A stretch of 64,000 bases of DNA, taken from Pedobacter ureilyticus (GTDB lineage: Bacteria; Bacteroidota; Bacteroidia; Sphingobacteriales; Sphingobacteriaceae). Each line of letters begins with the position of its first letter. Position 1 is the stretch's first letter. Positions 21,190-45,406 of the stretch are shown here, piece after piece. Below the pieces are notes generated by a model. It ran no database searches. It worked only from the letters and a program-made list of their open reading frames with translations, and had not been told where the DNA came from. The DNA is taken from NCBI RefSeq assembly GCF_005925345.1, contig NZ_SSHJ01000001.1, forward strand, positions 434,001 to 498,000. Reading direction: 5' to 3'. A program made the translations under genes and the position numbers.

Positions 21190-21206
21190 TATCTCTAGTA
21201 GTGATA
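21190..21206. promoter_or_regulatory. Palindromic operator-like site, copy 1
   Basis: TATCTCTAGTAGTGATA fits TATC-n-CTA-n-TAG-n-GATA, an odd-length dyad. It lies in the gap between rteC and the first gene of the tra operon. Two further copies lie at 43417-43433 and 43469-43485, in the regulatory region next to the recombinase, at the other end of the element. Confidence 0.6.
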
Positions 21207-21251
21207 AATAAATCCGAAAATCAGCCTCAAATACCTTTAAAAGGACAAAAC

Positions 21252-24271: not shown

Positions 24272-24371
24272 ATTATGATGGATTGAGTAAAAAAAAGGGG
24301 GCTTACCAATCCTAGCAGTTTCCCCTTTCACTATTAACTATTATTAACCTAATTTATTCATACAAATTTCA

Positions 24372-28438: not shown

Positions 28439-28448
28439 ATGAATATTT

Positions 28449-31400
28449 TTAAAAACCACAATTAACGCCCAGGGCATATGTAGTAGGGTTTACAAAACGA
28501 TTTGTTATAAAATCAGGATCAATATTAGTTTTCGTACTCTTCCAAAGTATTCCGATATTATTTGCATAAGCATAAAGGTTTAGATATCTGACCCTACTTT
28601 GCTTATTCAATCGTACATCGTATCCTATACGCAAATCCTGCAACCGGATGTGGTCACCTTTCTCGACTAATACCTCTGAACCTCTGTAAAAACCATTCCT
28701 ATTGGTGTTTAATGGATAGGTAAATGAAGGAACATTAGTCATTAGCTCATCACCTTTAACTTGCCATCTTTTATCATAATCCGGATGGCCCAACCAAGCT
28801 CCTGCCAACGAGGTATAGTCTATAGATGATCTCCTAAAATAATAATCAAATTTATACGTAACATTTACTGAGACTGATACACCCTTATATGTTAAGGAAT
28901 TTCTAAAGCCTCCAAAATGTGTAGGTCGGGCAGTTCCATGATATGCCAGTTGCGAAAAATCAGTAGAGGCTAATAACGCACTATAATCTTTGTTCGTTCC
29001 GTCGGCCGTTCGTATCAATGGATCACCATTATCTGGATCTAATCCACCCCAAGGATAACTGTATATTCCGTAAATCGGTTGGCCGACAATAGGTGTAAAG
29101 GTTGCTGTTGCTCCTAATTCGCCTCCCGCTGTTTGCATATAACCATTAAGACTGGCTGTTCTTTTGTATTGAATCACTTGATCTGTTGTAATACTAAATA
29201 ATAAATTACCGCTCCATCGCAAAGATTTACCAACTCTAAAAGTTAAATCTCCATCAAATCCACTTCCCGTAATATTGGCTACATTGCCTTTAAATTGAGA
29301 CATCCCGGTGGTGGGATCTAAGTCTGAATATCCAAGCATATCTTCGCCTTTTCTTTTGTAGTATTCAAAACTCCCGAATACTTGCCCATTAAGCACTGAG
29401 AAATCCATTCCTAAATTCAACATGGCGATGCGTTCCCAACGCAGTTCAGGATTTGGCGCCGTCTGTAGACTAACAAAGGGAAGTCCGGTTAGCAAAGCTC
29501 CTGTAGAAAAACTACCTGTTGCATAGGCAGATACTGTCCTATCGATGTTTCCGTTATAGCCGAACGTGGTTCGGAATTTTAGCATATCTATCCATTTTTT
29601 TTGCAAAAAACTCTCTTTACTTGCCATCCAAGAACCTCCAACTGACCACAGAGGAACTGATTTTTGGTTGGTATTGACCCCGAATAAATTACTCTGATCT
29701 ATTCTAGCACTACTTGACACAGTATATTTATCTTTGAACGTATAGGCTGTATTGCCGAAATAAGAGAAATAAATATCTGATAGTTTATTGTATCTGTCTA
29801 CATAAGTGATTCTGCTAGAAGCTGCTAGGTTTCCATATTTCGGATAATTCATTTCGTAATTTACGGGTGTTGAAGTCCCAACATGGTCTTTAAAACCATA
29901 CAAACGCCATGCATTAACATCTGTAACTACTTCTTTTCCATCAATACCTACAATTGCCGTTACTTCATGGTCACTTCCAAATTTCCGATCTAAATTCAGT
30001 TGTGCCCGAATTGAGTGACTAGTCATTTCCCGATTGTCCTGATCTAGTATGCCACCGCGAGGTACTCCATAAGTGAATGTACCCCCTCCAACTTGTGTAT
30101 TTAGGTTGATCAGGTTACGGGTAAAATAGCTCTGTTCGCTCTGCAAATTGTAATTACTTGCATTTTGATTTTCCAATTGATATCGTACTTCCGCACTTAA
30201 TCCTGGAATGAAGGTGTACTTTAAACTCGCATTTAACCTGGTGTGTGTGCTCTTACCTGTGTTATCTGCTAAACTCAATTCATCCAATGGCCTATATTGC
30301 CAATCCAGTAAGTTGCTTCCAGAAAGACTTTGGATATAATTTAACCGATAGTCTTTTGGCAAGGGTAAACTATTTCCATTCTCGTCCGCAATAAGGGCAT
30401 AAGGAAAAAATGTATTGCGAGAATTTCCAGGATTGATATTGCCAGGGTTGTTGTTCTGCGTATTAGCAATAATGTGCATAATACCCACCGTAGCTTCCAA
30501 ATACTTGATAGGTCTAAAGGTAGTATTGCTGTTCAAGCTCATCCGGCTATAACTATTCCCCACGTTTACAGAAGGCACATCATCATATCCGGCCGAAAAA
30601 TAATAGCTTACCTTGTCCGATCCCCCGCTTAAGTTCAATGAGTATTGCTGAGCAGCTGTGCTCTGGTAAAAATATTTCGATAATCCATCCCTGAAGTCAT
30701 AATTGCGATAGACATCCATTTGCTCTTTCGCCTGAGTTTCATTTATGTTACCATTTCTTTGACTGAGTAAGATTTCTACAATAGGCGACAGTGTCGGTTT
30801 ACGTACGTTGGTGATGTTGGAATTGTAATAGCCCTTGCTGAACAAAAACTGTTCTGCATCAATAAAACTAGAACTATGCAAAAAATTCTGATCATAGTAA
30901 ATATCCGGCTTTTCGGTTAAGGTTACATTGGAATTGAAATTAATATTCAGCGGACTGCTCAGCTTGCCTTTCTTAGTTGTAATTACAATCACCCCATTTC
31001 CAGACTTTGCACCCCATATGGAAGCTGCCGCCGCATCTTTCAAAACAGTGACATCCTCTACATCATTCGGATTAATGTTGGATAAATCCCCGTCAAAAGG
31101 AAAGTTATCTATAACAATTAATGGTTTGGTATTGGCAAAAATGGTACTTAAACCACGGATATTAAATGCAGATCCGTTTGGATTCGAAGGCCCTAAGTTA
31201 ACATTCGCGTTAAACATTAACCCGCTGGTTACACCTTCTAACCTTTCAATCAATGTTGACCCCACACGACGGTTCAGCAGCTCATTGTCAACCTTGGTAA
31301 ACGAACCCGTCGCCCGTTCCTTGTTCAACGTCTGAAAACCGGTATTCACCATCACATTTACCTCCTCCAGGTCGCCCGAGGCAATCGCCATCCCAATGTT

Positions 31401-32069
31401 CCCCATTTCCTTCTGCGCCTTCAGCTCTAGTGTCTGGTAACCCAAATAAGAAATCACCAGCACTGCATCCTCCGGCACCCCAGACAATACAAACTCGCCT
31501 TTTTCATTCGACCTGGTTACCCTTTCCGTCCCTTTGACCCTAATCGTAGCCCCAGGCAAACCAACACCCTTTTCATCCCTGATCACGCCTTGCACCTCGA
31601 TATCCTGCACCATGTTTAAAAGCAAAGACTTCGCCTTATCCAGCAAACTCTTCTGTTTGGCTTTAATCACTACCGTCTTCTCCGCAATCGTGTAGGTAAG
31701 TTCCTGCCCCTCCATACAAGCCTTCAAAGCCTCTTCCAAAGACACATTCTTCAAGCTCAGCGTCACCGGCCGCGCTTCTTTTAAATTCTGATCGTTATAA
31801 AAAAAATGATAGCCCGATTGTTTTTTCAGACTCTTGATCACGCTCAGCAAAGGAGTCTTCTGCTCATTGAGCGAAACCTGCGCTCTAGTCAGCGCACTCA
31901 CCTGCATCAGCATGGCCGTTAAAAAAAATACAATCAGGTTCACTCTCATCATTACCCTTTTAAAGGCAGCAGAACGCATACCCGGCATACCCGGGCAATC
32001 CTTTCCAACCACCGGCCAGCCCGTCCCATAAAAGACAGACTTTGACCTCATTCGGTCATTAAAATTCAT
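28449..32069 (-). CDS. SusC/RagA TonB-dependent receptor with STN domain (1206 aa)
   Basis: Signal region near residues 40-65 (RVNLIVFFLTAMLMQVSALT), an STN domain (about residues 65-130, SVIKSLKKQSGYHFFYNDQN), a carboxypeptidase-like repeat domain (VQGVIRDEKGVGLPGATIRV), a TonB plug (near residue 250, ending NPNDVEDVTVLKDAAAASIW) and a long beta-barrel. The STN domain links this receptor to FecR/FecI signalling, and both are encoded just upstream. The substrate is unknown; it could be a glycan or a peptide. The first 40 residues are uncertain. Confidence 0.95.
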   Translation of the reverse strand: MNFNDRMRSKSVFYGTGWPVVGKDCPGMPGMRSAAFKRVMMRVNLIVFFLTAMLMQVSALTRAQVSLNEQKTPLLSVIKSLKKQSGYHFFYNDQNLKEARPVTLSLKNVSLEEALKACMEGQELTYTIAEKTVVIKAKQKSLLDKAKSLLLNMVQDIEVQGVIRDEKGVGLPGATIRVKGTERVTRSNEKGEFVLSGVPEDAVLVISYLGYQTLELKAQKEMGNIGMAIASGDLEEVNVMVNTGFQTLNKERATGSFTKVDNELLNRRVGSTLIERLEGVTSGLMFNANVNLGPSNPNGSAFNIRGLSTIFANTKPLIVIDNFPFDGDLSNINPNDVEDVTVLKDAAAASIWGAKSGNGVIVITTKKGKLSSPLNINFNSNVTLTEKPDIYYDQNFLHSSSFIDAEQFLFSKGYYNSNITNVRKPTLSPIVEILLSQRNGNINETQAKEQMDVYRNYDFRDGLSKYFYQSTAAQQYSLNLSGGSDKVSYYFSAGYDDVPSVNVGNSYSRMSLNSNTTFRPIKYLEATVGIMHIIANTQNNNPGNINPGNSRNTFFPYALIADENGNSLPLPKDYRLNYIQSLSGSNLLDWQYRPLDELSLADNTGKSTHTRLNASLKYTFIPGLSAEVRYQLENQNASNYNLQSEQSYFTRNLINLNTQVGGGTFTYGVPRGGILDQDNREMTSHSIRAQLNLDRKFGSDHEVTAIVGIDGKEVVTDVNAWRLYGFKDHVGTSTPVNYEMNYPKYGNLAASSRITYVDRYNKLSDIYFSYFGNTAYTFKDKYTVSSSARIDQSNLFGVNTNQKSVPLWSVGGSWMASKESFLQKKWIDMLKFRTTFGYNGNIDRTVSAYATGSFSTGALLTGLPFVSLQTAPNPELRWERIAMLNLGMDFSVLNGQVFGSFEYYKRKGEDMLGYSDLDPTTGMSQFKGNVANITGSGFDGDLTFRVGKSLRWSGNLLFSITTDQVIQYKRTASLNGYMQTAGGELGATATFTPIVGQPIYGIYSYPWGGLDPDNGDPLIRTADGTNKDYSALLASTDFSQLAYHGTARPTHFGGFRNSLTYKGVSVSVNVTYKFDYYFRRSSIDYTSLAGAWLGHPDYDKRWQVKGDELMTNVPSFTYPLNTNRNGFYRGSEVLVEKGDHIRLQDLRIGYDVRLNKQSRVRYLNLYAYANNIGILWKSTKTNIDPDFITNRFVNPTTYALGVNCGF

Positions 32070-32196: not shown

Positions 32197-33399
32197 TTAT
32201 TTACGCACGATGATCCTCCTTCCTTCAACTTTGAAACGCACCAAATCGGTCATCTCGATTTTACTTAAAACCTGCGACACCGTCTCAAAACGGCTCATCG
32301 AACCGCTAAATGTCTTGTCCGCCAGATTATCTTCATACACCACCTCTACATCATACCAGCGCGAAAGCTTGCGCATGATGCTACCAATAGTTTCCTGTTC
32401 AAAAATAAACTCCCCGTTTTTCCAGGCCGCAGCCTCCTTCACATCCACTTCCGACACCTTCAATGCACCTCCCGTTAATACTGCCTGCTCACCTGGCACC
32501 ATGACCTTACCTTCAGCTTTACCTTCAATACTCACCTTCACACTGCCTTCCAGCAAGGTTGTTTTGACTGAAAACTCGTCTCCGTAGGCACTGATGTTGA
32601 AATGCGTACCCAATACCCGTACCTGCTGACCTGCTGAGCGTACCACAAAAGGCCGTAATTTATCCTTAGCCACTTCAAAATAACCCTCACCCTGTAAACG
32701 GACGGTTCTTTCCTTCGCATTTTTAAAGTTCAGCGGATATTCCAATTTGGAAGCCGCATTCAGCCAGACCCGAGTCCCGTCCGGTAATTTCACCTGATAC
32801 TGCCCGCCACGTGGCGTTTCCACTGTATTGCTGAGCATCACATCTTCTGCCGCTCCGTCGTCATTCTTTACCTCATAGACCAACTGACCGTCCGCCGTTT
32901 TGCTCAACACCAAACCACCCTGGGTTGCCAGTTGTCCGTTACCAGCACCTGTCAGTTCAATCCGTCTACCATCCGCCAAGGTCAGAAAAGCCTTGTTGCT
33001 TCCCGGAGCGACATCCTGCACCGCAGCCAGTTCCGTACCAGGTTTTACAAGATCCCGTTTTGTATAGAAAAACACACCAGCCCCCAAGATCAACAGAAGA
33101 GAAGCCGCTGCCGCTATCCTTGTCCAAAGTTTTCTCGTGCGCAATTGTTGCTGCGGAGCGGAGACCACCCCGGCATAAATTTCTTCTGAACGCTTCGCTT
33201 GTAGATGCTGTTCCTGACCGGGGGAAATGTCCTTCCAGGTATTGCCCATAAGTTCTAGGACAAAAGCCTTTCCGCTCGCGTCTTCCAGTACTTCGGCCCA
33301 TTCGATCTGCTCGTCGTCGGTCAGCGCATTTTCCAAGTAGCGCCCGTGTAAGTATATGATCCTGTCTGTATCCATTTTGTTCGTTTCCAATACGGGCAA
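32197..33399 (-). CDS. FecR-family anti-sigma factor (400 aa)
   Basis: A cytoplasmic N-terminal part, a single membrane helix (about residues 90-112, RIAAAASLLLILGAGVFFYT), then a periplasmic FecR domain (TVETPRGGQYQVKLPDGTRV, LNAASKLEYPLNF, then FEVAKDKLRPFVV). The C-terminal DUF4974-like region ends EMTDLVRFKVEGRRIIVRK. It should hold the ECF sigma factor inactive until the SusC receptor signals. Located between the sigma gene and susC in the same direction, with 63 bases to the sigma gene. Confidence 0.9.
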   Translation of the reverse strand: MPVLETNKMDTDRIIYLHGRYLENALTDDEQIEWAEVLEDASGKAFVLELMGNTWKDISPGQEQHLQAKRSEEIYAGVVSAPQQQLRTRKLWTRIAAAASLLLILGAGVFFYTKRDLVKPGTELAAVQDVAPGSNKAFLTLADGRRIELTGAGNGQLATQGGLVLSKTADGQLVYEVKNDDGAAEDVMLSNTVETPRGGQYQVKLPDGTRVWLNAASKLEYPLNFKNAKERTVRLQGEGYFEVAKDKLRPFVVRSAGQQVRVLGTHFNISAYGDEFSVKTTLLEGSVKVSIEGKAEGKVMVPGEQAVLTGGALKVSEVDVKEAAAWKNGEFIFEQETIGSIMRKLSRWYDVEVVYEDNLADKTFSGSMSRFETVSQVLSKIEMTDLVRFKVEGRRIIVRK

Positions 33400-33462: not shown

Positions 33463-34062
33463 TTATCCGAGCAATTTGAAGATGATCAACAAGGCGGACA
33501 CATCAGTATGCTCGCGGAGGTAATTGCGTAGGAAACGGAGCGCCAATTTCATGTGGCGCTGAACGGTATGCTGGGAAAGTTCCAGTTGATTGGCCGCCTG
33601 TTCATATTTCAGGCCTTGCTGGTGGCAGAGCTGATAAACTTTTTTCTGCTGGGGTGGCAACAGGTCTATGGCATCCAGCAGCAATTTCCGGGTGTCGTTT
33701 AGTAGAATCAGTTCCTCGGTATCGTTGTGGCTTTCCTCCCAGTCGATGCTGCGTATTAGGTCGACTTTGATCTCCATCTGCCTGCGGTACATGATGTCCA
33801 TGGAGCGGTTGCGGGTAATGGTGAGCAGGTAGTTTTCCAGGTGCTTGATCTCGGTGATACGGGTGCCCATCTGCCAGAGTTTCATGAAGACTTCCTGTAC
33901 GATTTCCTCAGCCTGGTTTTCGGATTTGATGTATTTCAAGGCGAAGGTGTAGATCTTGCGGTGGTAACTGTTGTAGAGTGTGCGGAAGGCACGCTGATCC
34001 CCCTGAGCAATTTCTTGCAGCAGTGCCTGATGGCCAATGGGTATCTTACGTACTTTTTCCAT
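33463..34062 (-). CDS. FecI-type ECF sigma factor (199 aa)
   Basis: Region 2 (YHRKIYTFALKYIKSENQAE, EEIVQEVFMKLWQ) and region 4 (LPPQQKKVYQLCHQQGLKYE, NQLELSQHTVQRHMKLAL) are intact; the 199-residue length is normal. It would direct transcription of the susC/susD/TlpA locus and be held by the adjacent FecR. It is the first gene of the run and has about 280 bases free upstream, so its promoter should lie there. Confidence 0.9.
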   Translation of the reverse strand: MEKVRKIPIGHQALLQEIAQGDQRAFRTLYNSYHRKIYTFALKYIKSENQAEEIVQEVFMKLWQMGTRITEIKHLENYLLTITRNRSMDIMYRRQMEIKVDLIRSIDWEESHNDTEELILLNDTRKLLLDAIDLLPPQQKKVYQLCHQQGLKYEQAANQLELSQHTVQRHMKLALRFLRNYLREHTDVSALLIIFKLLG

Positions 34063-34341: not shown

Positions 34342-37146
34342 ATGAAACCACACCACAGCTTGATCCTTCGATTGCCACAATTCCCAATGAAAACCAAGCT
34401 TACAGATGTGTGGAATGAATTAAAAAGCTCCATTAGAAACGCCTCACCGGAATTCTATGATTTAATCAAGGAGACAGCGGCGAATGACATACCAAATTTA
34501 CCCGAGAGAACACAAATTACTATTTTCAAATATTTTAACCGGGCTAAATTCCGTTGTACGCCGTTTGGAACTTTTTCTTCGTTTGGCGTAGTAATGTGTA
34601 TGCCAGCCTCTGAGCCATTAATCGTAAGTGATGAAAAGACCGCCCATGCTTTAACTGACTGGCCAAACTTCGATCAGTCGCCTTATAGCTTTGAAGATCT
34701 GATTGATAAAAACTCCAGGCTATTTGCAAACAGCAGTTACTACAAAATCGGAAATGCCATCCGATACATCAAAAGAAAAGACGAAACTTTTGAACTGGCA
34801 GAAGTAGATTATGATCCGATGATAGTAGCCGTGCTCAACCTCTGTAGGAAACCAGTAACCATTTCTGAACTATTAAAAACAGCCTCCACAAAAACCAAGC
34901 GTCGAGCCCGTTATGAGTTGCTTGAAGATATGATTATATGTGGGTTATTAATCACAGAACTTGATCCAAATATCATTGGAGAAGATTATTTTAAGAGGAT
35001 AAACCTAAACTTAAATATCTCAGAACAAAAGTACCTGCTAAGTGAACAGAAAATTATCCAGGGCAATTTTCCACAGAAATTGTTGCAGCATATCCCTCAA
35101 CTGTTGGAACTGCTTAAAAATACGTTACCCCTCACGCCGGATTCGGATGACCTGATAGACTTCACTAAGAAATTCACCAAACACTTCGACCGGGCCAATA
35201 TCCCATTAATGACTGCACTAGATCCAGAATTGGGAATCGGATATGGAAACTTGCATCTTTCTAAAAATACTGGTAGCCTTGTAGGTGAAATTATTGCCAA
35301 ATCCCAAGCGGAGAAATCTGATAGGTTAAAGGAACTGAAAGCTATTCTTAACGATCATTGTAGTTTTAAAGTAGGTGAATGTATTCGAATCGACGATCTG
35401 CTAAAATCTAAAAACTCAAGTGCCAATGACAAACCGTTACCCAATTCTTGTTCGATGATGATAAGAGCAGTCGATGAAAATATAATCGTTGAAAGAATTG
35501 GTGGAAATACCTTCAATCAACTTGCCGGACGATTTAGTTTCGTCAGCTCCGATGTAAAACACTTATGCAGCAGCATCACAGAAATTGAGGAGCAAGCAAA
35601 TCAAAATGTTGTATTTTTCGATTTAGCCTATCATGCTGAGAAGAAAGTAGACAATGTAAACAGGAGAAGCAGGATATATCAGCAGGAACTTAATCTGTTG
35701 AATTATTCTGAACTCGATGAACCATTGACACTGGATGACCTGTACATAAGTGTCTCAGGCGACAAAATTGTCTTGCGTTCGAAAAGACTGGGAAAGCGTG
35801 TGATTCCCCGAATGGCCTCAGCCTACAACTACCAAAGATCTGAATTACCCGTATTCCGCTTTCTTTACGACCTTAGTTATCACGGAATATGGAGCGATCT
35901 CACTTTCGACCCTTTATTGATATTTCCTAAAAAAAAATATTACCCAAGATTTCAGTTCAGAAATATTATTCTTTCTCCGGCCAAGCTAAAAATCATAAAT
36001 GCTGATATTCAAGAAAAAAATACAGCTCAGCAACTGGAAAAAATAAAGGAACTCCTTTGCCTCTATCAACTTGGAGATTACGTTCGGCTCGTTCGGGGAG
36101 ATGAATATTTAGTCTTTAACATAAATTTTAGCGAAGAGTTGCAGTTGCTTCTCCAGGAGATTAAAAAAAATGGAGAAGTTTATGTTGAGGAATTTTTGAT
36201 GCCGGATAATCCAACGGCGATGGACAAGAACGGCGCGGCATTTAACAATCAATTTGTGGTTCCGCTGGTACATCACAAGGAAATCTATTTTAGCAGCGCT
36301 GCAATGGAAGAAGATACTGAAAATACCCAAAGGAAATTCCTTCCCGGTAACAGATGGTTATCTTTTGAAATTTATTCGCATACTGGACGTGCGGACGAAA
36401 TATTGCTGGGTCCATTAACGGAGATTCTTTTGAAGTTCCGTGATTATATTTTATGTTGGTTTTTTATTCGCTATAATGAGAATGGCGATCACCTGAGATT
36501 CAGAATCGAAGTTAACGACGATCAATTTAACGAGCCCATTTTCAAAGCTATACGAATCAGTCTACAGCCTTTTCTTAATGCAGGGCTAATTTCTGATCTG
36601 ACAATAAAAACTTATATCCGTGAAATAGAACGATATGACATTGCGAAGATAGACTATGTAGAGCAACATTTTAAGAAGGATAGCGAGTTTGTAGTGAAAA
36701 GACTACAAGAAAAAATCTCCGAAAGGCAGAAATATGTTCACTGCCTTCAGTTATTCTTAGGGATTAAAAGCTCAGGGCTTATCAAAACATCGAGGTATGA
36801 CAGCTGGATCAACAACATTGCCGAGCATTTCGGCAAAGAATTTCAGATGGATAAAACTAAGTACAAAAATATCAATTCCTATTACAAAGAAACCAAATTT
36901 GAAAACCTTGTGAGAGAGCGGAGTCATTTCAACGAATTTCAGGATTTTTTGGATTCATTCATTCTCACCCTTTCTAAATGCCCCGAACAAAGAAGGGCTC
37001 CATTATTTACCGATCTGATGCATATGCATATCAACAGGCTCTTTGACTCCCATCAAAGGGTACATGAAATGATTATCTATAATCTACTTTCCGCCATTAT
37101 TAAAACCGCTACTAGTCTCGCTAATAAAGCATCCCAGAATTTCTGA
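34342..37146 (+). CDS. Lantibiotic dehydratase LanB, glutamylation and elimination domains (934 aa)
   Basis: Full-length LanB. Residues key to the NisB glutamylation domain are in place: an early LILRLP, and RAKFRCTPFG giving Arg67, Arg71, Thr73 with the same spacing as in NisB (R83, R87, T89). The C-terminal SpaB_C-type elimination domain has GDHLRFRIE, YIREIERYD and a C-terminal DLMHMHINRL histidine region. It uses glutamyl-tRNA to dehydrate Ser/Thr in a peptide. No LanC cyclase is near. It converges with and overlaps the regulator gene by 26 bases. The precursor genes lie downstream, past the regulators. Confidence 0.9.
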   Translation: MKPHHSLILRLPQFPMKTKLTDVWNELKSSIRNASPEFYDLIKETAANDIPNLPERTQITIFKYFNRAKFRCTPFGTFSSFGVVMCMPASEPLIVSDEKTAHALTDWPNFDQSPYSFEDLIDKNSRLFANSSYYKIGNAIRYIKRKDETFELAEVDYDPMIVAVLNLCRKPVTISELLKTASTKTKRRARYELLEDMIICGLLITELDPNIIGEDYFKRINLNLNISEQKYLLSEQKIIQGNFPQKLLQHIPQLLELLKNTLPLTPDSDDLIDFTKKFTKHFDRANIPLMTALDPELGIGYGNLHLSKNTGSLVGEIIAKSQAEKSDRLKELKAILNDHCSFKVGECIRIDDLLKSKNSSANDKPLPNSCSMMIRAVDENIIVERIGGNTFNQLAGRFSFVSSDVKHLCSSITEIEEQANQNVVFFDLAYHAEKKVDNVNRRSRIYQQELNLLNYSELDEPLTLDDLYISVSGDKIVLRSKRLGKRVIPRMASAYNYQRSELPVFRFLYDLSYHGIWSDLTFDPLLIFPKKKYYPRFQFRNIILSPAKLKIINADIQEKNTAQQLEKIKELLCLYQLGDYVRLVRGDEYLVFNINFSEELQLLLQEIKKNGEVYVEEFLMPDNPTAMDKNGAAFNNQFVVPLVHHKEIYFSSAAMEEDTENTQRKFLPGNRWLSFEIYSHTGRADEILLGPLTEILLKFRDYILCWFFIRYNENGDHLRFRIEVNDDQFNEPIFKAIRISLQPFLNAGLISDLTIKTYIREIERYDIAKIDYVEQHFKKDSEFVVKRLQEKISERQKYVHCLQLFLGIKSSGLIKTSRYDSWINNIAEHFGKEFQMDKTKYKNINSYYKETKFENLVRERSHFNEFQDFLDSFILTLSKCPEQRRAPLFTDLMHMHINRLFDSHQRVHEMIIYNLLSAIIKTATSLANKASQNF

Positions 37147-37849
37147 TCTGACGGACAAATTCATTTTTGTATTTTTCACCGAATGGAAAAATCCGATCGT
37201 TTTCCAGGTGTATGTCATATGCATCATACCCTACCACTTTTGCCATGTTCACCAGAATAGAACGGTTGATACGAATAAAGTGCGGCAATGGAAGCAATGA
37301 TTCCAGTTGCTTCAAAGTCAAATAGCATAAGTGCGTTGTTCCATTTACAAAATGTATAATAGAGAAATTTGCCGCGGCCTCAATGTACCATACATCTTCA
37401 GTCTTTAATCGTATCCTGACTTCCCGTCCGTTTCCTGGTATGTAATAATAAGGAAGAGGAGGAGTAAAACTGATAGGCTTTCTAGCTTGATGTATTTCTT
37501 TTGCCCGCATTATTGCCGCCATAAATTTTTCATATCCAAAAGGTTTATAAAGGTAACCTGAAGCTCCTTTTTCAAACGCATCTTCGGCGAAATCGCGATG
37601 GCCGCTAATCAGAATCACAACCGCCAAATGACTAAGTTCTTCTAAAATCTCGAAGCCTGAAACTCTTGGCATTTCTATATCTAGAAATATAATATCGGCT
37701 ATGATTTTGTTTTCTCTGATTTTTTCGAAAGCGGCTAAAGGGTCGGTCTCTCCCGCTGAAAAATATAGAAATTCTGTCTTTTCCGTATATTGTTTTACGA
37801 GCCGGATACTCGCAGGATTGTCATCAATCACGCAACAATTCAATATCAT
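37121..37849 (-). CDS. LytTR-family response regulator (242 aa)
   Basis: Receiver domain (acceptor Asp57 in IIFLDIEMPRVSG; also an early DD pair and VILISGHRDFAEDAF with YKPFGYEKF Lys), then a LytTR DNA-binding domain (EDVWYIEAAANFSIIHFVNG, PLPHFIRINRSILVNMAKV). LytTR regulators activate nearby genes. Encoded with, and overlapping by 4 bases (ATGA), the kinase upstream. It converges on lanB and shares 26 bases with its 3' end. The likely targets are the precursor genes on the other side of the kinase. Confidence 0.9.
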   Translation of the reverse strand: MILNCCVIDDNPASIRLVKQYTEKTEFLYFSAGETDPLAAFEKIRENKIIADIIFLDIEMPRVSGFEILEELSHLAVVILISGHRDFAEDAFEKGASGYLYKPFGYEKFMAAIMRAKEIHQARKPISFTPPLPYYYIPGNGREVRIRLKTEDVWYIEAAANFSIIHFVNGTTHLCYLTLKQLESLLPLPHFIRINRSILVNMAKVVGYDAYDIHLENDRIFPFGEKYKNEFVRQIRNSGMLY

Positions 37850-38556
37850 AATTGAAGAGATAGGATAAGTTTAAATTCGCGTTCACTGCTCTTAATCAAC
37901 AATTCGTACTTGGAACGATAATTATTCTCTAGCCTTCTTCGCAAATTCCCCAGCCCAATTTGATTACTAACTCGGTATTCGAGAGGGATAATTTTATTAA
38001 ACGTCTGAAAAATCAAAACACTTTGTTCATATCGGACTTCAATTCTGGAGGGTAAACCTTGATTACTATGATCACCGTACTTCAGCAAATTGACTACTGG
38101 TTCTAAAAAGATATGAGGTGGGATATAAATGGCATCCTGGTTAATATCATCGATGGCAATTTCAATGAAAAGATCATTTTCAGTTTGCAAGGAAAAAAAT
38201 TTGATATAATTCTTTATGGTTTGCAATTCGGCAAATAAGGAAATATATCCTCTGTCATCAGATTTATGAATAGCCTGAGCACTGAGTTGCGCTAATAGCT
38301 CAACCATTTCAGCGCACCTATCGGAATACTTTATGACATGTTCATAAAGGACGGTCAGTCCGTTATTTAACAAATGCGGGCTTATTTGAGCCCTTAAGAG
38401 ATCATTTTCTAACTGCATGGCTCTTTGTTTGTTCACGCCACGTTCTGATCGAAGTAAATTCAAAACTCTGGTTGAAACTTTATCTAAAAAAGAAATGACA
38501 TCCATATTTAAGTATCTAAAAATGTGATTTAAAGAGTTAATCGCCCTGTTCATCAT
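37846..38556 (-). CDS. Soluble LytS-type histidine kinase (236 aa)
   Basis: Kinase core of the LytS (HisK_5) family: the H-box AQISPHLLNNGLTVLYEH with His61 (usual form is Q-x-N-P-H-F-x-F-N, here S and L variants), then IPPHIFLEPVVNLLKYG as the N-box. The final GLGNLRRRLENNY G-box also fits. No membrane segment or sensor domain precedes it, so it is a soluble enzyme, unlike most LytS kinases, and input must come from elsewhere or from partner protein. It lies 30 bases upstream of the peptide gene's promoter on the opposite strand. Confidence 0.75.
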   Translation of the reverse strand: MMNRAINSLNHIFRYLNMDVISFLDKVSTRVLNLLRSERGVNKQRAMQLENDLLRAQISPHLLNNGLTVLYEHVIKYSDRCAEMVELLAQLSAQAIHKSDDRGYISLFAELQTIKNYIKFFSLQTENDLFIEIAIDDINQDAIYIPPHIFLEPVVNLLKYGDHSNQGLPSRIEVRYEQSVLIFQTFNKIIPLEYRVSNQIGLGNLRRRLENNYRSKYELLIKSSEREFKLILSLQL

Positions 38557-38585
38557 TATATATTAAAATAGTTTCAAGAGTCTAT

Positions 38586-38608
38586 TACATTTGGGTAACA
38601 AACCCAAA
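38586..38608 (+). promoter_or_regulatory. Promoter and inverted repeat of the precursor-peptide gene
   Basis: TACATTTG (38586-38593) matches TAnnTTTG; no clear TTTG box 20 bases upstream, so an activator may be needed. An inverted repeat TTTGGGT (38590-38596), five bases, ACCCAAA (38602-38608) overlaps the box and runs into the leader. Transcription start would be near 38600, 19 bases before the ATG. Divergent from the kinase gene. Confidence 0.6.
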
Positions 38609-38618
38609 AAAAAGTCAT

Positions 38619-38762
38619 ATGAAAGCAAAAAGCAACAAAACTGGCATCAACACCCGTACAGTGTTCAGCTTCAACGCACAAACTAGTAGTGATGTGGTAA
38701 AAAGTCATCCTACACTTACAGCTACGACAAACACTACTTACATTTTCAACTGTCTGAAGTAG
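38619..38762 (+). CDS. Putative class I lanthipeptide precursor peptide (47 aa)
   Basis: Starts MKAKSNKTGINTRTVFSFN; the FSFN block at 16-19 resembles the F-N-L-D-type recognition motif of class I leaders. Residues 28-47 are rich in Ser/Thr (one Ser, seven Thr) with His-Pro, and end in FNCLK with the single Cys at 45. That layout, Ser/Thr for dehydration and one Cys for one thioether ring, fits a LanB substrate. It has a TAnnTTTG promoter and a perfect 16-bp-stem terminator, which makes a chance frame unlikely. Modification and activity are inferred; the cleavage site is not clear. Confidence 0.75.
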   Translation: MKAKSNKTGINTRTVFSFNAQTSSDVVKSHPTLTATTNTTYIFNCLK

Positions 38763-38766
38763 ATTC

Positions 38767-38802
38767 AAGAATGAGAGTAGATGAATATCTACTCTCATTC
38801 TT
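38767..38802 (+). terminator. Terminator of the precursor gene
   Basis: Two 16-base arms (38767-38782 and 38787-38802) form a perfect stem with a GAAT loop and end in TTT, starting four bases after the stop. It is symmetrical, so it could also act on transcription from the other side. It explains how the peptide gene is insulated from its downstream neighbour. Confidence 0.9.
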
Positions 38803-39020
38803 TGGTTCACCTACCCTTCCAGTTACCAGCACCATCTAAGGCTTTACTCTCAACGACCCATTTTTATATAGACTGTCTAAAATTGAAACAGGGGCAATTG
38901 AAATATTTTATTCTTCGTTTCCTATTAGAATATTAGATGTATATCTTTTAGAATGAAAGCTAGCCATAGCCGAGTTAAGAGTTAAACTTCCTATCAATTA
39001 AACCGTAAAAATGCATTAAC

Positions 39021-39167
39021 ATGAAACTCCAAACCATCACATCAAGAATCTTCTGCAGAATTGCATTTAAGTTCAGAAACACGAAAGCGCAAAAATCTGA
39101 TCAAATCGCTTCCGCATCAGCGACCGGCACAATCACCATTTCTGACAATACGATACTTTTGCCATAA
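39021..39167 (+). CDS. Second small peptide gene, possible precursor (48 aa)
   Basis: Begins MKLQTITSRIFCRIAFKFRN, then KAQKSDQIAS and a C-terminal half rich in Ser/Thr (SASATGTITISDNT) ending ILLP. A basic leader-like half and a Ser/Thr-rich tail match the first peptide's layout, but there is no Cys in the tail, so thioether rings are not possible there; dehydrated residues alone would be. It is followed by its own terminator at 39195-39227. No promoter box is seen. Confidence 0.45.
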   Translation: MKLQTITSRIFCRIAFKFRNTKAQKSDQIASASATGTITISDNTILLP

Positions 39168-39194
39168 TTTAATATATGATATTTTTTAAAAAAT

Positions 39195-39227
39195 ACGTCT
39201 TAAACTTCATGTTTGAGCGTTTTTTTT
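39195..39227 (+). terminator. Terminator after the second peptide gene
   Basis: ACG and CTTAAAC (39195-39205) pair with GTTTGAG and CGT (39211-39220) around TTCAT (one bulge, one G-T pair), followed by a seven-T run. It lies 28 bases after the stop and 30 bases before the end of mobC on the other strand. Confidence 0.75.
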
Positions 39228-39249
39228 ATTGATCATTCTTAAATATTTG

Positions 39250-41319
39250 CTACATCGAAAGCGGCGCCCGCTGATCTACTCTGACCTCCTTTAGCTTACC
39301 TGATTTCCTTTCCAATTTCTCCGTTTTCCTAATCTTAACCTTACTTTTAGCCTTATTCCTGGCCATTTTGTCTCTTACCTTTAGAGCATTCAACTCCTCA
39401 GTTACCAAATTACTAATCTGCTTTTTGATCTTCAGGTAATTTTCATTGACATCTTCCACAGTTACCTCAGCAATAAGTGGTATCAAGGAATATTCGGATT
39501 CCTCCTTGGCTATCGCCTCATGGTCATTCTGAATTTCTGCATGGAACATCTTAAGCTTGATCTTCTGGTCAGGGTTATCTGCCACTATGCCCACAAACTC
39601 ACCAGAAGAAAGCCCTGCAATTTTTGCTGCTGGAACAGCATAATCAAGTTGCATCGATTTTGAAGTTGAAGTATCAGAACTGTTAATACTCAATGATGTC
39701 CTGTCCTGCATAATCTTCCCAAATCCTTCAGAAAGTGTCTTTGCCGTATCGCCCGTCACCTGACCACTGATCACATTGCCCACAATTCCGGTAATCACAT
39801 CGGCTTGTTCGGCACCATAATCTTTTTTAAGCTGGCTGAAATCCTGAACCGCCAAAGTGGTCGCCACCTTATTGCTTCTGGCTGTTGCGATCAGGCTGTC
39901 CATATTGTTAAAATAGATAGTGGGAAATTCATCGAATAGGAGACTGCTTTTTAATTGTCCCTTACGGTTAACCAGTTTGATCATTCTGGAAATATAGAGC
40001 GATAGAACCGCGCCGTAAGTTTGCAATTTTTGCGGATTGTTTCCCACGCATATAATTTTGGGCTCTTTTGGATTGTTCACGTCCAACGTAAAATCATTTC
40101 CACTCAGTACGTAATATAATTGTGGAGAAGATAATCTTGCTAGTCCAATTTTCGCACTGGCAATCTGACCCTCCAGTTGCGCCTTCGCATTGTTATGGTA
40201 GGCTGATATAAAAGGGTTGATCAGCACCCTGATTTCTTCCTCCATCTCCAGCACAGCAAAAAGGTGGTCATATTCAACCTGCATGAGCTCGATCACGTGA
40301 GGCAGGGTACAATATCTGCCATCCTGATACTTCCTTAAATACCAGATTACCGCCGTCAAAAAATTGATCGGGCTTTCTACAAAGAAATCACCCTGCTTTT
40401 TGATCCATTCCCGATTCAGCCCCATCATGATCGTACGGCTGGCCTCGGTCGCATCGGTAATATCTTCCATACCAGCTGGATCAAGGGGATTACATCGGTG
40501 TGTCCTGTTCAGATCATCAAAATTGATGATGTAAAATTGCGGGCAGACATCATACGCTCCGCTATAATTTAACAGTTTATTATAAGCGATCTTGGTCAGG
40601 TCGTCATACTTAAAGTCATACAAGAACATGCTGAAACCTTTTTTGATATGCTGATCGATGATGTGACGGATCACAAAATAACTTTTCCCTGCACCAGGCG
40701 TACCTGCTACCAACAATCCTCGAAAGGGATTGATCACATTGATCCAGCTTTGCCTGATTTTATTCTTCAACTGGTATTTTGCAGGCAGGTTGATCGAATA
40801 TTCATTTTCTAAAAGCCTCTCTTCCTGAGGAAAGGTCTCATTTTCTGAATTGAAAATATCCTTGTTCAAGCTATTCTTAATTAACCTTGAAAGCCAGTTA
40901 CCACCAGTAAGCATGAACAAATAGCCGATACCAGTTAGGCACATGTAGGTGATAGCCACCATAGAAACAGAGAATTGCAGGTAAAGCGCCAAAAAGCTAA
41001 GAGAATAGACCAGTAGGCCACATAAAAGATAGGCGGCAATACTTTTACGCTGGATATTTTCGTCCTTTTTGCCTTTGGCCCCTAGTAGGCTGATCGCCAT
41101 AAAAAGCAGTGCTGCTAACTTTGGCTTTATTATGCCGTTAAATAAACCTGTTTTCGCAACATTTCCCACGATTTTATCAGCTAATTCGGCAGTCCATCCC
41201 CAATGGTCAAATGCCTTATAACAACTGATATAAAAATGCAGGCATAATATCGCTATGCTGATCAATCTGCTAAAATCAATAATCTTGCGCAATCCTTGCG
41301 CATCCTCGCCAGTATTCAT
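39250..41319 (-). CDS. mobC: Mobilisation coupling ATPase MobC (VirD4/TraG-type, 689 aa)
   Basis: Type IV coupling protein: four or so N-terminal membrane helices (about residues 15-135), Walker A GTPGAGKSYF (206-213 region), Walker B KSSLLFDEFPTIYF, and a TALVAVQDFSQLKK-like motif ('TTLAVQDFSQL'). It brings the relaxase-bound DNA to the TraG channel. Last gene of the mobA-mobB-mobC operon, 10 bases after mobB. A basic tail rich in Lys/Arg follows. Confidence 0.9.
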   Translation of the reverse strand: MNTGEDAQGLRKIIDFSRLISIAILCLHFYISCYKAFDHWGWTAELADKIVGNVAKTGLFNGIIKPKLAALLFMAISLLGAKGKKDENIQRKSIAAYLLCGLLVYSLSFLALYLQFSVSMVAITYMCLTGIGYLFMLTGGNWLSRLIKNSLNKDIFNSENETFPQEERLLENEYSINLPAKYQLKNKIRQSWINVINPFRGLLVAGTPGAGKSYFVIRHIIDQHIKKGFSMFLYDFKYDDLTKIAYNKLLNYSGAYDVCPQFYIINFDDLNRTHRCNPLDPAGMEDITDATEASRTIMMGLNREWIKKQGDFFVESPINFLTAVIWYLRKYQDGRYCTLPHVIELMQVEYDHLFAVLEMEEEIRVLINPFISAYHNNAKAQLEGQIASAKIGLARLSSPQLYYVLSGNDFTLDVNNPKEPKIICVGNNPQKLQTYGAVLSLYISRMIKLVNRKGQLKSSLLFDEFPTIYFNNMDSLIATARSNKVATTLAVQDFSQLKKDYGAEQADVITGIVGNVISGQVTGDTAKTLSEGFGKIMQDRTSLSINSSDTSTSKSMQLDYAVPAAKIAGLSSGEFVGIVADNPDQKIKLKMFHAEIQNDHEAIAKEESEYSLIPLIAEVTVEDVNENYLKIKKQISNLVTEELNALKVRDKMARNKAKSKVKIRKTEKLERKSGKLKEVRVDQRAPLSM

Positions 41320-41329
41320 AATCGTTAGT

Positions 41330-42604
41330 TTAAAGTGTCAATTCTTGATTTTGATCATTTTTCTTTCTTTTCTTTTTCCTGCGTGGTATTGCTGTACCAT
41401 AATCAGGCTGGGTTTTTGCGAGTGCCAATTCCAGAAATCTTGTTGGCTGTGGAGGTTTAAGAAATGTCTCTATTGGGCTTGGCTGTTTAGTGTGTTGACG
41501 GTTTGCTTGTCTTAATGGTTGGATAATTTTAGGACTGCTCTCCAGATTTTCTTTTCCCAATCTCTCAATTATCGCCTTAGCACTAAATTCTTTTCCAAGA
41601 TCACTACCATTGAAGACCGTTTTACGCCTATGGTCGATAAATGTAATCCCAAATACCTGTCCCTGATCGTTCCGCCTGAACAGCACATCGACACCCTTTT
41701 TCTTCGCTTCTACCTCAAATCTGCTCTGGGTAATCGAAAGGTATCGGGCAAATACATTTTCAATGTCCTTTTTCAAATCTTCCCTAAAAGGTTTACGTTT
41801 TGTTTTGTTCACCTCAAATTTCTGTTCGAGACTTGCCATCGTGGGCTTGCTATAAAAGGAACTGGCCTTGATCGGTACACCAGTAGCTAAGCCTTTTTCG
41901 TTCAGCAGACTGAACATCAATCCTCTATTTTTGAACATGGCCGTGTGCTCGGCACCACGTAGGGCAGTTACGTTGAAGCACTTTAAAACGGCATTAAATT
42001 CTGCAAGCGAGGTAAATTTGTATTCTCTTAAAATGGGCGTAACCACATTGCTAATCGCTCTTTTGGTCGTTACCTTGCCGTATTTTACTTTTTTTGGATC
42101 TGCTTGTTTTATCTTGGCATCCATCACAAAGGCTTTTGATTCAGCTTTAACCAAATTGAATTGCTCTTCTATCGCTTTCCTTGCGGGTTCGGATAAGTTT
42201 TTACCAATATCATGCATTACAATTCTTTCCTTGCTGGCGGTGATGTTGGTTGAAACGATGTGCAGATGGAGGTGTGCGGAATCATCGTGTCTATAAACCA
42301 GAAATGGCTGATCGCCAAAATCAATTTTCTCCATATAGGCAGCAGCAATTTGTTGGAGTTTTTGATTTCCGATCCTCTCACTGGAATGGAAATTGAGCGA
42401 AATGTGTACCGCATTGGTTTTTACATTTGGTTTCATCTGGGTAAGAAAATTAAACCTGTTGAGCTTCTGCATGAAGTTCATCCGTTCAATTTCCCCCGCA
42501 AAGCCGCTGGCCATAATTAGGCTTGCTTCTCCCTCGTCCACCTTGTTCTCGTTATAGTGGAGCAATCCCCTGATACTTCTGCCGGTAATTATTCTTGCAA
42601 CCAT
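41330..42604 (-). CDS. mobB: Relaxase MobB (424 aa)
   Basis: Relaxase/mobilisation nuclease domain: an early Tyr in LLHYNENKV (about residue 17), FLVYRHDDSAHLHLHIVSTN with the histidine triad (HLHLH at 111-115), and 'FHSSE' at about 73-77. It nicks one strand at oriT and stays attached through Tyr. The C-terminal half is Lys/Arg-rich. It overlaps the end of mobA by 16 bases and leads into mobC. Frame intact. Confidence 0.9.
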   Translation of the reverse strand: MVARIITGRSIRGLLHYNENKVDEGEASLIMASGFAGEIERMNFMQKLNRFNFLTQMKPNVKTNAVHISLNFHSSERIGNQKLQQIAAAYMEKIDFGDQPFLVYRHDDSAHLHLHIVSTNITASKERIVMHDIGKNLSEPARKAIEEQFNLVKAESKAFVMDAKIKQADPKKVKYGKVTTKRAISNVVTPILREYKFTSLAEFNAVLKCFNVTALRGAEHTAMFKNRGLMFSLLNEKGLATGVPIKASSFYSKPTMASLEQKFEVNKTKRKPFREDLKKDIENVFARYLSITQSRFEVEAKKKGVDVLFRRNDQGQVFGITFIDHRRKTVFNGSDLGKEFSAKAIIERLGKENLESSPKIIQPLRQANRQHTKQPSPIETFLKPPQPTRFLELALAKTQPDYGTAIPRRKKKRKKNDQNQELTL

Positions 42605-42996
42605 TTTTCAGCCAGTTTGGATATGATCTTCAATAGCTTTTCCACCCGCTCATCAACCTGTTCATATTGATCGATAACTTTTAGGGTGAAGAATGACCTG
42701 CCAGCATCGGTTTTATCCTGATTGAAGTGCCGTGTGATCTGGTTGATGTTGATGCCTATTGCTTTTAGTTCCTTGCGGATCAGTGCGAGCTCTTCCATAA
42801 CGGGGTTCATGGAAATGTCCTGCTTAAAAATTTTGATCTGTCTTGATGAAAGTATTTTTCTACAGATTTCCGCAATGGAAAGTGAACTGCTTTGTATACG
42901 CAGTTTTTCTAGATTTTCAAACTGCTTTTCGGTCACCCTTACAATGATATTACGGCTCAACAGTTCTTCTGACTTATCGGATTTTCTTCTTGGCAT
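42589..42996 (-). CDS. mobA: Relaxosome accessory protein MobA (135 aa)
   Basis: Start chosen at 42996 (MPRRKSDKSEELLSRN); the frame reaches 43092 but its first 32 residues run through the hairpin and promoter and are not protein-like. Motifs: NIIVRVTEKQFENLEKLRIQ (ribbon-helix-helix-like DNA-binding part), LSIAEICRKILSSRQI, then 'LKAIGININQITRHFNQ' typical of MobC/MobA-type relaxosome proteins. It binds oriT near the relaxase nick site. First gene of the mob operon, overlapping mobB by 16 bases. Confidence 0.85.
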   Translation of the reverse strand: MPRRKSDKSEELLSRNIIVRVTEKQFENLEKLRIQSSSLSIAEICRKILSSRQIKIFKQDISMNPVMEELALIRKELKAIGININQITRHFNQDKTDAGRSFFTLKVIDQYEQVDERVEKLLKIISKLAEKWLQE

Positions 42997-43060
42997 TATC
43001 TCTCGTTTATTGAAAGTTCTGACAGCACGAGTTCCGAGTGATGTTCCCGGCCTGAAGGAC

Positions 43061-43099
43061 GGCAAAGATCTTTTGCGCATGCAAAAGTACATCTTTGCC
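43061..43099 (-). promoter_or_regulatory. Hairpin with embedded promoter box upstream of mobA (oriT candidate)
   Basis: GGCAAAGAT (43061-43069) pairs with ATCTTTGCC (43091-43099); inside, CTTTTGC (43070-43076) pairs with GCAAAAG (43081-43087) around GCAT. The minus-strand TACTTTTG (43089-43082) is a perfect TAnnTTTG box inside the hairpin. It lies about 65 bases upstream of the chosen mobA start, the place where the oriT of mobilisation units is usually found. The nick site is not identified. Confidence 0.55.
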
Positions 43100-43195
43100 T
43101 AGACCAAGCGGGCTACAGAAAGCTACTTTGAAAACTGCATTTGAACTTTGGTAAATGGTTTATCGACTGTTTATTTATCGCTGTTTAATCTTGAA

Positions 43196-43369
43196 TTAGA
43201 TTTTTTGTGAATCTGATTTTCTCAGGCATTCCAATTCCTGTAACGGGATCGATGTCCGTAGGAGTTGCCTGATCTTTTGTCTGGACTGAAGCTTCACCTT
43301 TTTTAATTTTAGATAAGGATTGCCATTGAACTTGCGCCCTTTAATCGATGGGTCTTTCTGATTTTTCAT
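43196..43369 (-). CDS. Small basic protein, 57 aa
   Basis: Starts MKNQKDPSIKGRKFNGNPYL and has LKKVKLQSRQKIRQLLRTSI and a C-terminal PLQELECLRKSD. Highly basic with an amphipathic helix, so it may bind DNA. It is divergent from the 71-residue gene; two palindromes lie between the two ATGs. Unrecognised family. Confidence 0.5.
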   Translation of the reverse strand: MKNQKDPSIKGRKFNGNPYLKLKKVKLQSRQKIRQLLRTSIPLQELECLRKSDSQKI

Positions 43370-43416
43370 AACTCACATTTTTGATAGCCCAAAGTTGAAG
43401 TGTCCCGAAATCGGTT

Positions 43417-43433
43417 TATCTCTAGTAGCGATA
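43417..43433. promoter_or_regulatory. Palindromic operator-like site, copy 2
   Basis: TATCTCTAGTAGCGATA, matching TATC-n-CTA-n-TAG-n-GATA. It differs from the 21190 site at one base (C for T at position 13). It lies 47 bases upstream of the minus-strand 57-residue gene. Confidence 0.6.
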
Positions 43434-43468
43434 AAAAGATTTTTAAGGGAATTTTCAACTTCTTTATT

Positions 43469-43485
43469 TATCTCTACTAGAGTAT
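43469..43485. promoter_or_regulatory. Palindromic operator-like site, copy 3
   Basis: TATCTCTACTAGAGTAT, a close variant of the same dyad with an inverted CTA/TAG core and GTAT instead of GATA in the right half. It lies 44 bases upstream of the plus-strand 71-residue gene and 52 bases from copy 2, so both divergent genes are flanked. Confidence 0.5.
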
Positions 43486-43529
43486 TTGCTAAAATTCTGA
43501 TCCTCAATATTGCGGAAATCATTCGCATC

Positions 43530-43745
43530 ATGAACAATTATAATCCACTTGAGAAACGTAAAGTGAAGCCCCAAAAAGTTGTTAAGATACTTGCTCAACA
43601 TGGTACTGAAGTCACTATCGAACAGGGGCAATTAATTTTGGATTTCGCCTATATTTTTGCTAAATTATGGCTCAAAGAGGTGAAAATGAAGGGTTTTAAA
43701 AAAGTTCAGCCCAGAGTCAAAACACCCAGAAAATTATACAAGTAA
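43530..43745 (+). CDS. Small hypothetical protein upstream of the recombinase (71 aa)
   Basis: Start chosen at MNNYNPLEKRKVK (43530); the frame extends upstream to 43395 but those residues cross the palindromes and are not protein-like. Motif KVVKILAQHGTEVTIEQGQL, then ILDFAYIFAKLWLKE (helix), basic tail KKVQPRVKTPRKLYK. Similar proteins sit upstream of serine recombinases in Bacteroidetes elements. It probably works with the recombinase, perhaps as a directionality or regulatory factor; this is inference. Gap to the recombinase start is 44 bases. Confidence 0.7.
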   Translation: MNNYNPLEKRKVKPQKVVKILAQHGTEVTIEQGQLILDFAYIFAKLWLKEVKMKGFKKVQPRVKTPRKLYK

Positions 43746-43789
43746 TTACTTAATCAGTTTAGTATGAAAAAAGGTAAAGGAGAATTAAA

Positions 43790-45373: not shown

Positions 45374-45406
45374 GACCAACGCGTCTACCAATTCCGCCAC
45401 CTGGGC
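45327..45406 (-). tRNA. tRNA-Leu (CAA)
   Basis: Cloverleaf read by eye: 5' arm GCCCAGG (45406-45400) pairs with CCTGGGT (45334-45328; last pair G-U), discriminator A at 45327. D-arm region includes GGTAGACGC, the anticodon loop CT-CAA-AC lies between TTGGT and ACCAA, a short variable arm, and the T-arm CCGG-TTCGATC-CCGG. No encoded CCA. Acts in translation of UUG codons. Its 3' end is the insertion site of the element. Confidence 0.95.

Follow-up and report, generated by a model that had tools for sequence, protein, structure and literature searches.

Among the described systems closest to the locus reported here are the class I lanthipeptides (nisin, with NisB/NisC, and MadB), which have a full-length LanB, precursors divided into leader and core, and a kinase/regulator pair. 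These features are also found at positions 34342 to 39227 of a 64,000 bp stretch of Pedobacter ureilyticus DNA (assembly GCF_005925345.1, contig NZ_SSHJ01000001.1, positions 434,001 to 498,000 of the forward strand; this whole stretch is hereafter the window). In contrast with class I lanthipeptides, however, there is no LanC in the locus or the genome, the regulator is of the LytTR type, no exporter or protease lies nearby, the cores of the window's family are mostly free of Cys and neither NCBIfam nor Pfam has a model that the precursors match. The LanB-based class I lanthipeptides of the same phylum, Bacteroidota, include the pinensins and the Pedobacter lusitanus clusters, and these carry LanC. 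Thiopeptides, goadsporin and dehydrazoles pair LanB-type dehydration with YcaO heterocyclisation. They resemble the window locus in dehydrating without LanC (for dehydrazoles, PMC10676384), but here the host genome has no YcaO and LanB is fused. Pearlins and pyritides also combine the LanB superfamily with Cys-free precursors and no cyclase; in the passages on them in PMC11002830 their LanBs are truncated, whereas here a full-length, fused dehydratase is the sole modifying enzyme recognised.

A large lanthipeptide survey took LanC as its starting point and dropped precursors without a core Cys (PMC7268733), so a LanB family without LanC would have been invisible to it. A survey of the Bacteroidales reports no LanB there (PMC10352776). 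We recognised no description of a full-length LanB with a LytTR pair and Cys-free precursors in the open-licence literature, as covered by titles and the starts of abstracts. The data below suggest that the locus probably belongs to an apparently undescribed, LanC-independent family of ribosomally synthesized and post-translationally modified peptides (RiPPs), whose products would be dehydrobutyrine-rich, mostly ring-free and under LytTR control. The family is found mainly in the host's own family, Sphingobacteriaceae.

LanB and its precursor peptides

The locus is made up of the following features (window coordinates).

34342 to 37146, plus strand: LanB, 934 aa, predicted glutamyl-tRNA-dependent Ser/Thr dehydratase with fused glutamylation and elimination domains (Pfam)
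37121 to 37849, minus strand: LytTR response regulator, 242 aa, convergent with LanB, their 3' ends overlapping by 26 bp (Response_reg, E = 4.8e-17; LytTR, E = 4.1e-15)
37846 to 38556, minus strand: PF06580 histidine kinase, 236 aa (His_kinase, E = 4.6e-11)
38619 to 38762, plus strand: precursor peptide 1, 47 aa, with leader box RTVFSFN and a Thr-rich core; single Cys close to the C-terminus (family hidden Markov model)
38768 to 38801, plus strand: terminator-like hairpin 3' of peptide 1 with a short T run (-24.8 kcal/mol, z = -5.97)
39021 to 39167, plus strand: precursor peptide 2, 48 aa, with leader box RIAFKFR and a Cys-free core rich in Ser/Thr (family hidden Markov model)
39187 to 39228, plus strand: hairpin 3' of peptide 2 with a T run, like an intrinsic terminator (-13.6 kcal/mol, z = -3.85)

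LanB matches both Pfam dehydratase domains (Lant_dehydr_N, E = 9e-60; Lant_dehydr_C, E = 7e-48) and NCBIfam TIGR03891. A sequence search of PDB returns NisB and MibB, and the profile version of the search returns 9g04. Alignment with NisB places Y64 at Y80 and R67, R71 and T73 at R83, R87 and T89 (counted by eye), and R719 and H894 at R784 and H961; R10 lies beyond the displayed alignment and is equated with R14 of NisB by motif alone. Mutation of NisB R14, Y80, R83, R87, T89, R784 or H961 reduces or abolishes dehydration (PMC4341554). An earlier note on this DNA, made from the letters alone, had reported a full-length LanB with Arg67, Arg71, Thr73 and an elimination domain, and both the Pfam domains and the NisB alignment bear this out. 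An AlphaFold model of LanB (predicted local distance difference test 84, predicted template modelling score 0.67) has MadB (9g04), NisB and MibB as its best structural matches, with template modelling scores of about 0.55-0.58 and a large root mean square deviation over the whole length.

A protein search gave 329 relatives among 7993 proteins scored, the best at 48% identity. We compared 77 loci, comprising the window, sets of 40, 3 and 20 loci and 13 with longer LanBs (1000-1034 aa); they were picked down the ranked list and are therefore a non-random sample, to which seven outgroup loci were added. A scan of genome contigs with a single LanB as query gave no relative, and with an alignment as query it gave three loci. 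By arrangement, 25 loci are type B (LanB, then regulator, then kinase, as in the window), 45 are type A, 6 are type U and one (L064) is unclassed. R10, Y64, R67, R71, R719, R721, E761, R764 and H894 are invariant in all 77 LanBs including that of the window, and T73 is kept in 74. Judged by its sequence, then, LanB retains the full residue set of a complete dehydratase. There is no second LanB in the host genome, where the window LanB is the sole match to both LanB families.

In other LanC-less, Cys-free clusters, LanB homologues have turned out to be PEARL or pyritide enzymes (PMC11002830), which could suggest that this LanB performs some other aminoacyl-tRNA chemistry, either stable glutamylation or a PEARL-like addition of amino acids to the C-terminus. 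Those cases are truncated LanBs, however, and the PEARL pathway is defined by a short LanB; here Lant_dehydr_C is fused, the elimination residues are kept, and R719, R721, E761, R764 and H894 are invariant in 77 of 77 loci. We regard other chemistry as highly improbable.

The window locus would work like the first half of a class I lanthipeptide pathway. LanB would bind each small peptide by its basic leader, glutamylate Ser and Thr residues of the core from glutamyl-tRNA and then eliminate glutamate; the result would be a linear peptide with many dehydrobutyrine and dehydroalanine residues, on which no lanthionine cyclase acts. Peptides of two Bacteroidota clusters were fully dehydrated in Escherichia coli given the producer's glutamyl-tRNA synthetase and tRNA (PMC9993889), and refactored class I clusters were poorly modified without them (PMC9576775). 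The LanC-less family suggests that in many Bacteroidota Ser/Thr dehydration via glutamyl-tRNA is a goal of its own, and its small, one-enzyme systems would be suited to probing LanB selectivity without a cyclase.

The two tiny Ser/Thr-rich peptide genes that the earlier note had picked out, each with a terminator, are present as open reading frames (ORFs) of 47 and 48 aa with a hairpin after each. Their C-terminal parts hold up to 10 Ser/Thr in peptide 1 and up to 9 in peptide 2. Across the loci, the small ORFs adjoining the regulator pair belong to a single family; up to seven stand in one array, and their cores are often near-identical. The precursor models were built with all loci and verified by leaving out one locus at a time; at E < 0.05 the leave-one-locus-out model places a precursor next to the pair for 36 of 41 loci, with one stray among 6460 small ORFs. 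The final model (E < 0.1 and at least four Ser/Thr in the second half) gives 110 peptides from 68 of the 77 loci. Their leader is basic and has a TVFVYK-like box of the pattern [KR]-[ST]-hydrophobic-F-x-[FY]-K-like. The cores are Thr-rich (TDPTTTMITTT is an example), with means of 5.4, 7.5 and 7.2 Thr in the last 26 residues for types A, U and B, respectively. A model including close relatives and the window peptides matches the latter in the host genome with E = 5.6e-15 and 2.2e-13 (next match, E = 1.8), and no further clear precursor is found in that genome. The window peptides are the likely substrates of the window LanB.

In types A and U, the commonest arrangements, Cys is found in the last 26 residues of 3 of 84 distinct peptides, all from L048. 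As most members of the family lack a Cys from which a ring could be made, their products would be mostly ring-free. In type B, the window's subtype, 11 of 19 distinct peptides have Cys in this region, two of them having two. The core of peptide 1 has one Cys and the sole Cys of peptide 2 sits in its leader part, which agrees with the earlier proposal that at most one ring could form. The lone C-terminal Cys of this subtype might stay free, add non-enzymatically to a dehydro residue or enter a disulfide. The core of peptide 1 resembles those of L039 and L080, and its C-terminal end, SHPTLTATTNTTYIFNCLK, is similar to SHPTTGSTTNSTYIFNCPK in L039 and STHPTTSGTSNSTYIFTCFK in L080. A single methyllanthionine ring, formed spontaneously or by LanB, would make the window product a one-ring lanthipeptide, and the C-terminal Cys and an upstream Thr are indeed conserved (TTNTTYIFNCLK in peptide 1, TTNSTYIFNCPK in L039 and TSNSTYIFTCFK in L080). 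We consider this unlikely: the core of peptide 2 has no Cys, types A and U keep the same LanB though they are mostly Cys-free, and the adjoining TlpA gene points to thiol/disulfide handling as much as to a thioether. Most likely, the window locus makes dehydrated peptides with at most one ring, and its relatives make theirs under LytTR control.

In seven loci (L041, L046, L048, L049, L056, L057 and L060) there are four to seven precursors per array, with varying leaders and near-identical cores, which suggests dosage or concerted evolution.

Absence of LanC from the host genome and related loci

From 22 to 45 kb of the window the earlier note had seen neither a cyclase nor a protease nor an ABC exporter, and we likewise find none, either by Pfam among the 17 non-peptide ORFs scanned there or by eye among the others. 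It had also proposed a search of the whole genome. The host genome is 99.98% complete in 52 contigs and has no match to LanC (PF05147) anywhere, so that the absence extends beyond the locus to the entire genome. Of the other partners sought there, Peptidase_C39 (exporter) and YcaO have no match, and S8 proteases have five, one of them at 2884 to 5244 of the window. The same models match among 14 control genomes (LanC in 1, C39 in 8, YcaO in 5 and S8 in 7), and the two LanB families, which match the window LanB itself, match none of the 14.

The related loci give the same picture. With a LanC model built from the outgroup LanCs, no LanC is found in the fetched stretches of any of the 77 loci, and among the LanC places listed for genomes of the host's family none falls inside a fetched ingroup stretch (by eye). 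A LanC match is lacking altogether in 43 of 70 sampled genomes that carry related loci. In the outgroup, LanC lies within four genes of LanB in 5 of 7 loci, adjoining it in four; one of these loci, L114, was chosen with its LanC already known, and the blind count is 4 of 6.

The earlier description of a reduced lanthipeptide locus, whose LanC had been lost or would come from the chromosome, does not fit these results, as all 77 relatives share LanB and the regulator pair without LanC. The cyclase is missing from every related gene set examined, so its absence is not a loss in this strain. Lanthipeptide proteases can be unclustered (PMC8960859) and five S8 protease matches are present in the genome, one of them in the window, so that an ordinary class I lanthipeptide locus might be served in trans by a LanC, a protease and an exporter encoded elsewhere. 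We give this very little credence: there is no PF05147 match in the nearly complete host genome, 43 of 70 genomes with such loci also lack LanC, and the cores are mostly Cys-free. Supply of a Pfam-detectable LanC in trans was dismissed on the first two grounds. Judged by LanC, the window locus is not a class I lanthipeptide locus; judged by core Cys, most of its relatives would not be either.

The tree of 84 LanBs, rooted with the outgroup, splits off the 77 ingroup sequences with a Shimodaira-Hasegawa-like approximate likelihood ratio test (SH-aLRT) value of 100. The window groups with L039, L079 and L080 (SH-aLRT 100). L079 and L080 come from 'Bacteroidetes bacterium 43-16'; the source of L081 is Mucilaginibacter sp. 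FT3.2. Sampling across the class gives, at E = 1e-20, a LanB match in 41 of 395 genomes; among the matches listed, the close LanB type of 930 aa is confined to the host's family, and the protein search also shows Chitinophaga and Taibaiella at 36-38%. The family escapes any mining that takes LanC as its entry point and drops cores without Cys, yet 221 of the 399 genomes of the host's family have a LanB relative (of either clade or canonical), and 122 of these 221 have no LanC match; LanC matches occur in 111 of the 399.

Several observations weigh against a distinct LanC-independent family to which the window belongs. The loci are related, so the counts are not independent. Two of the 7 outgroup loci have a regulator pair no more than three genes from LanB, and 4 of 7 have one within four genes, so the pair alone is not the mark of the family. 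A LanC-like frame, the nearest of the listed places, lies 10.7 kb from LanB in genome G309, beyond the fetched stretch. L115, an outgroup locus with LanC, also contains a Cys-free ORF rich in Thr (E = 0.61), and the final model gives no precursor in 9 of 77 loci (L039, L066, L074, L079, L083, L107, L108, L111 and L112), of which L039 and L074 did score with an earlier model. The window peptides are divergent, with leave-one-locus-out scores among the 6460 small ORFs (E = 0.043 for peptide 2 and 0.11 for peptide 1) that are modest taken alone. Finally, neither an exporter nor a dedicated protease was identified for the window locus.

Two further features of the LanB loci were observed. L103, L104 and L106 have two LanB genes close together (about 1002-1009 and 1010-1012 aa) with one regulator pair. 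The Pedobacter-type loci L040-L047, L050, L051, L053, L054, L059 and others lie near Hsp90 (htpG) on one side, and the other side is often near genes for PorP/SprF, OmpA/PD40 and very large proteins; these neighbours were assigned by domain scan in L040 and by sequence cluster in the rest.

The regulator pair and upstream repeats

The LytTR regulator and kinase reported in the earlier note are recovered by Pfam (Response_reg with LytTR, and His_kinase), and all 77 loci have a regulator and kinase no more than three genes from LanB. Nine-bp repeats spaced by 12 bp are the binding sites of LytTR regulators, AgrA and PlnC among them. We scored direct repeats upstream of the precursors at offsets of 14 to 33, with z values relative to letter shuffles only. 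In 21 Pedobacter-type loci the score is highest at 21 bp (z = 11.1). The 21-bp offset has z = 4.7 in 24 other type-A loci (runner-up 1.5) and z = 8.4 in 18 type-B loci including the window (runner-up 4.1, at offset 30). In single regions, offset 21 is in the top two of the 20 offsets for 27 of 70. Repeats with a 12 bp spacer are seen as AGTTACCCA-12-AGTTACCCA in L068, GGTTTTATC-12-GGTTTTATC in L048 and L057, TTCTGTATA-12-TTCTGTATA in L087 and TTCATGTAA-12-TTCATGTAA in L064. These data are consistent with a model in which the divergent kinase/LytTR pair would control transcription of the precursors through direct repeats of 21 bp period.

Three results run counter to this model, two of them in the window itself. 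The Pedobacter-type group is also elevated at offsets 22 and 23 (z = 7.6 and 7.8). The two window upstream regions have no clear 21-bp repeat (offset 21 ranks 7 and 18 of 20). The window kinase has no N-terminal membrane or sensor region, being 236 aa long where those of the other 76 loci have at least 330 aa (eight kinases were aligned); there is an in-frame TAA three codons 5' of its ATG. Regulation of the window copy may therefore be altered, the kinase being truncated, and this copy may answer another sensor or be deregulated. The short kinase and the lack of a clear repeat would also be expected of a decaying copy, non-functional after loss of its sensor region and operator. This is improbable, as all frames are intact, the LanB residues are kept, and the locus still has its His_kinase region and two precursors, each followed by a hairpin.

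The Bacteroidetes -7 box (TAnnTTTG) was also considered upstream of the precursors. There is one at 38586, but it occurs in 8 of 68 loci against 6.8 expected; it is thus not enriched and was not used.

SusC/SusD/TlpA genes and the mobile element

On the other side of LanB there is a run of genes on the minus strand.

33463 to 34062, minus strand: extracytoplasmic function (ECF) sigma factor (Sigma70_r2, Sigma70_r4_2, Sigma70_ECF)
32197 to 33399, minus strand: FecR anti-sigma protein (Pfam FecR, FecR_C)
28449 to 32069, minus strand: SusC-like TonB-dependent outer-membrane protein, 1206 aa, with an N-terminal STN domain (Plug, E = 5e-13; CarbopepD_reg_2; STN, E = 5e-10)
27110 to 28477, minus strand: SusD-like lipoprotein (SusD-like_3, E = 2.3e-34; SusD_RagB)
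25646 to 27088, minus strand: TlpA/AhpC-TSA thioredoxin-fold protein, 480 aa (AhpC-TSA, Redoxin, Thioredoxin_8)
24701 to 25150, minus strand: DsbD N-terminal-domain protein (PF11412, E = 2.4e-08)
23705 to 24331, minus strand: GNAT acetyltransferase (Pfam)
22724 to 23656, minus strand: LuxR-type (GerE) regulator, probably membrane-bound (by eye; Pfam GerE)

The fetched stretches hold both SusD and TlpA in 17 of the 25 type-B loci, in 3 of the 45 type-A loci, in L064, and in none of the 6 type-U or 7 outgroup loci. Of 40 control regions, taken from set positions in type-B genomes and related ones, 2 hold them. This first control used models from the loci and a stricter cut-off for the controls; an equal cut-off gave the same 2 of 40 with TlpA. 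BLAST searches with the window's own TlpA and SusD, at one threshold throughout, find both in 12 of 24 type-B loci (window excluded) and 1 of 39 controls (Fisher P = 1e-5); one control region (L155) was left out of this repeat because it contained a LanB. The pair lies beyond the kinase in L039, L058, L061, L063, L066-L068, L079, L080, L095 and L096, before LanB in L110-L113, and divergent from LanB, with FecR and the sigma factor, in the window. Homologues of the GNAT and LuxR-type genes (E = 1e-30) recur in L064, L085, L086, L087 and L100, all of which carry SusD and TlpA, and in no control region.

The earlier note had speculated that the SusC/SusD/TlpA genes could handle the product. The linkage to type B lends this support, in that the association with the window's subtype is real; a role in handling the product is putative. 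On the other side, each genome has tens of TlpA candidates and SusCD/TlpA genes are common there. Additionally, there are five changes on the tree, too few independent contrasts for a SusCD link, and a sign test is not significant. In the window's subtype, the module would travel with a SusC/SusD/TlpA system that most likely serves peptide uptake or sensing, possibly of the product. The family would tie a RiPP to both a LytTR operator and a SusCD system.

To the left of these genes (10512 to 22112) are conjugation genes including a TraG ATPase and RteC (21252 to 22112), with further tra-like ORFs recognised by eye. To the right (39250 to 45406) are a T4CP (coupling protein), a relaxase, MobC, a serine recombinase and a tRNA-Leu gene into which the recombinase ORF extends. 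From their setting, the LanB and SusCD genes appear to be carried as cargo by an integrative conjugative element. A search for a repeat of the tRNA-Leu 3' end that would mark its left end gave no long repeat. RteC homologues adjoin six related loci (L058, L061, L068, L079, L080 and L108) and no control region. STN-type domains signal to FecR. A further, tentative suggestion, which we hold to be doubtful, is that the whole forms a mobile peptide-signalling or -scavenging unit carried on conjugative elements: a dehydrobutyrine-rich linear peptide with one C-terminal thiol would be released and then recovered or sensed by SusC/SusD/TlpA, the signal passing from STN through FecR to the ECF sigma factor, with a cyclase never having been part of it. 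If so, dehydration alone would define this class of RiPP, and the RiPP would have a SusCD receptor of its own.

Type-B loci (L039, L058, L061, L063, L066, L067 and others) also have a secreted protein of about 100 aa between precursor and TlpA, which in several loci carries a paired-Cys motif, CP...GSKPCE. Pfam gives no match for this protein in L063, nor for the window lipoprotein at 24372 to 24689 or the 116-aa ORF at 43395. Finally, the genes for an AAA ATPase (PF00004) and, after it, a subtilase of 786 aa (PF00082) lie at 1642 to 5244 of the window, possibly a defence-type pair and a remote candidate for leader removal.

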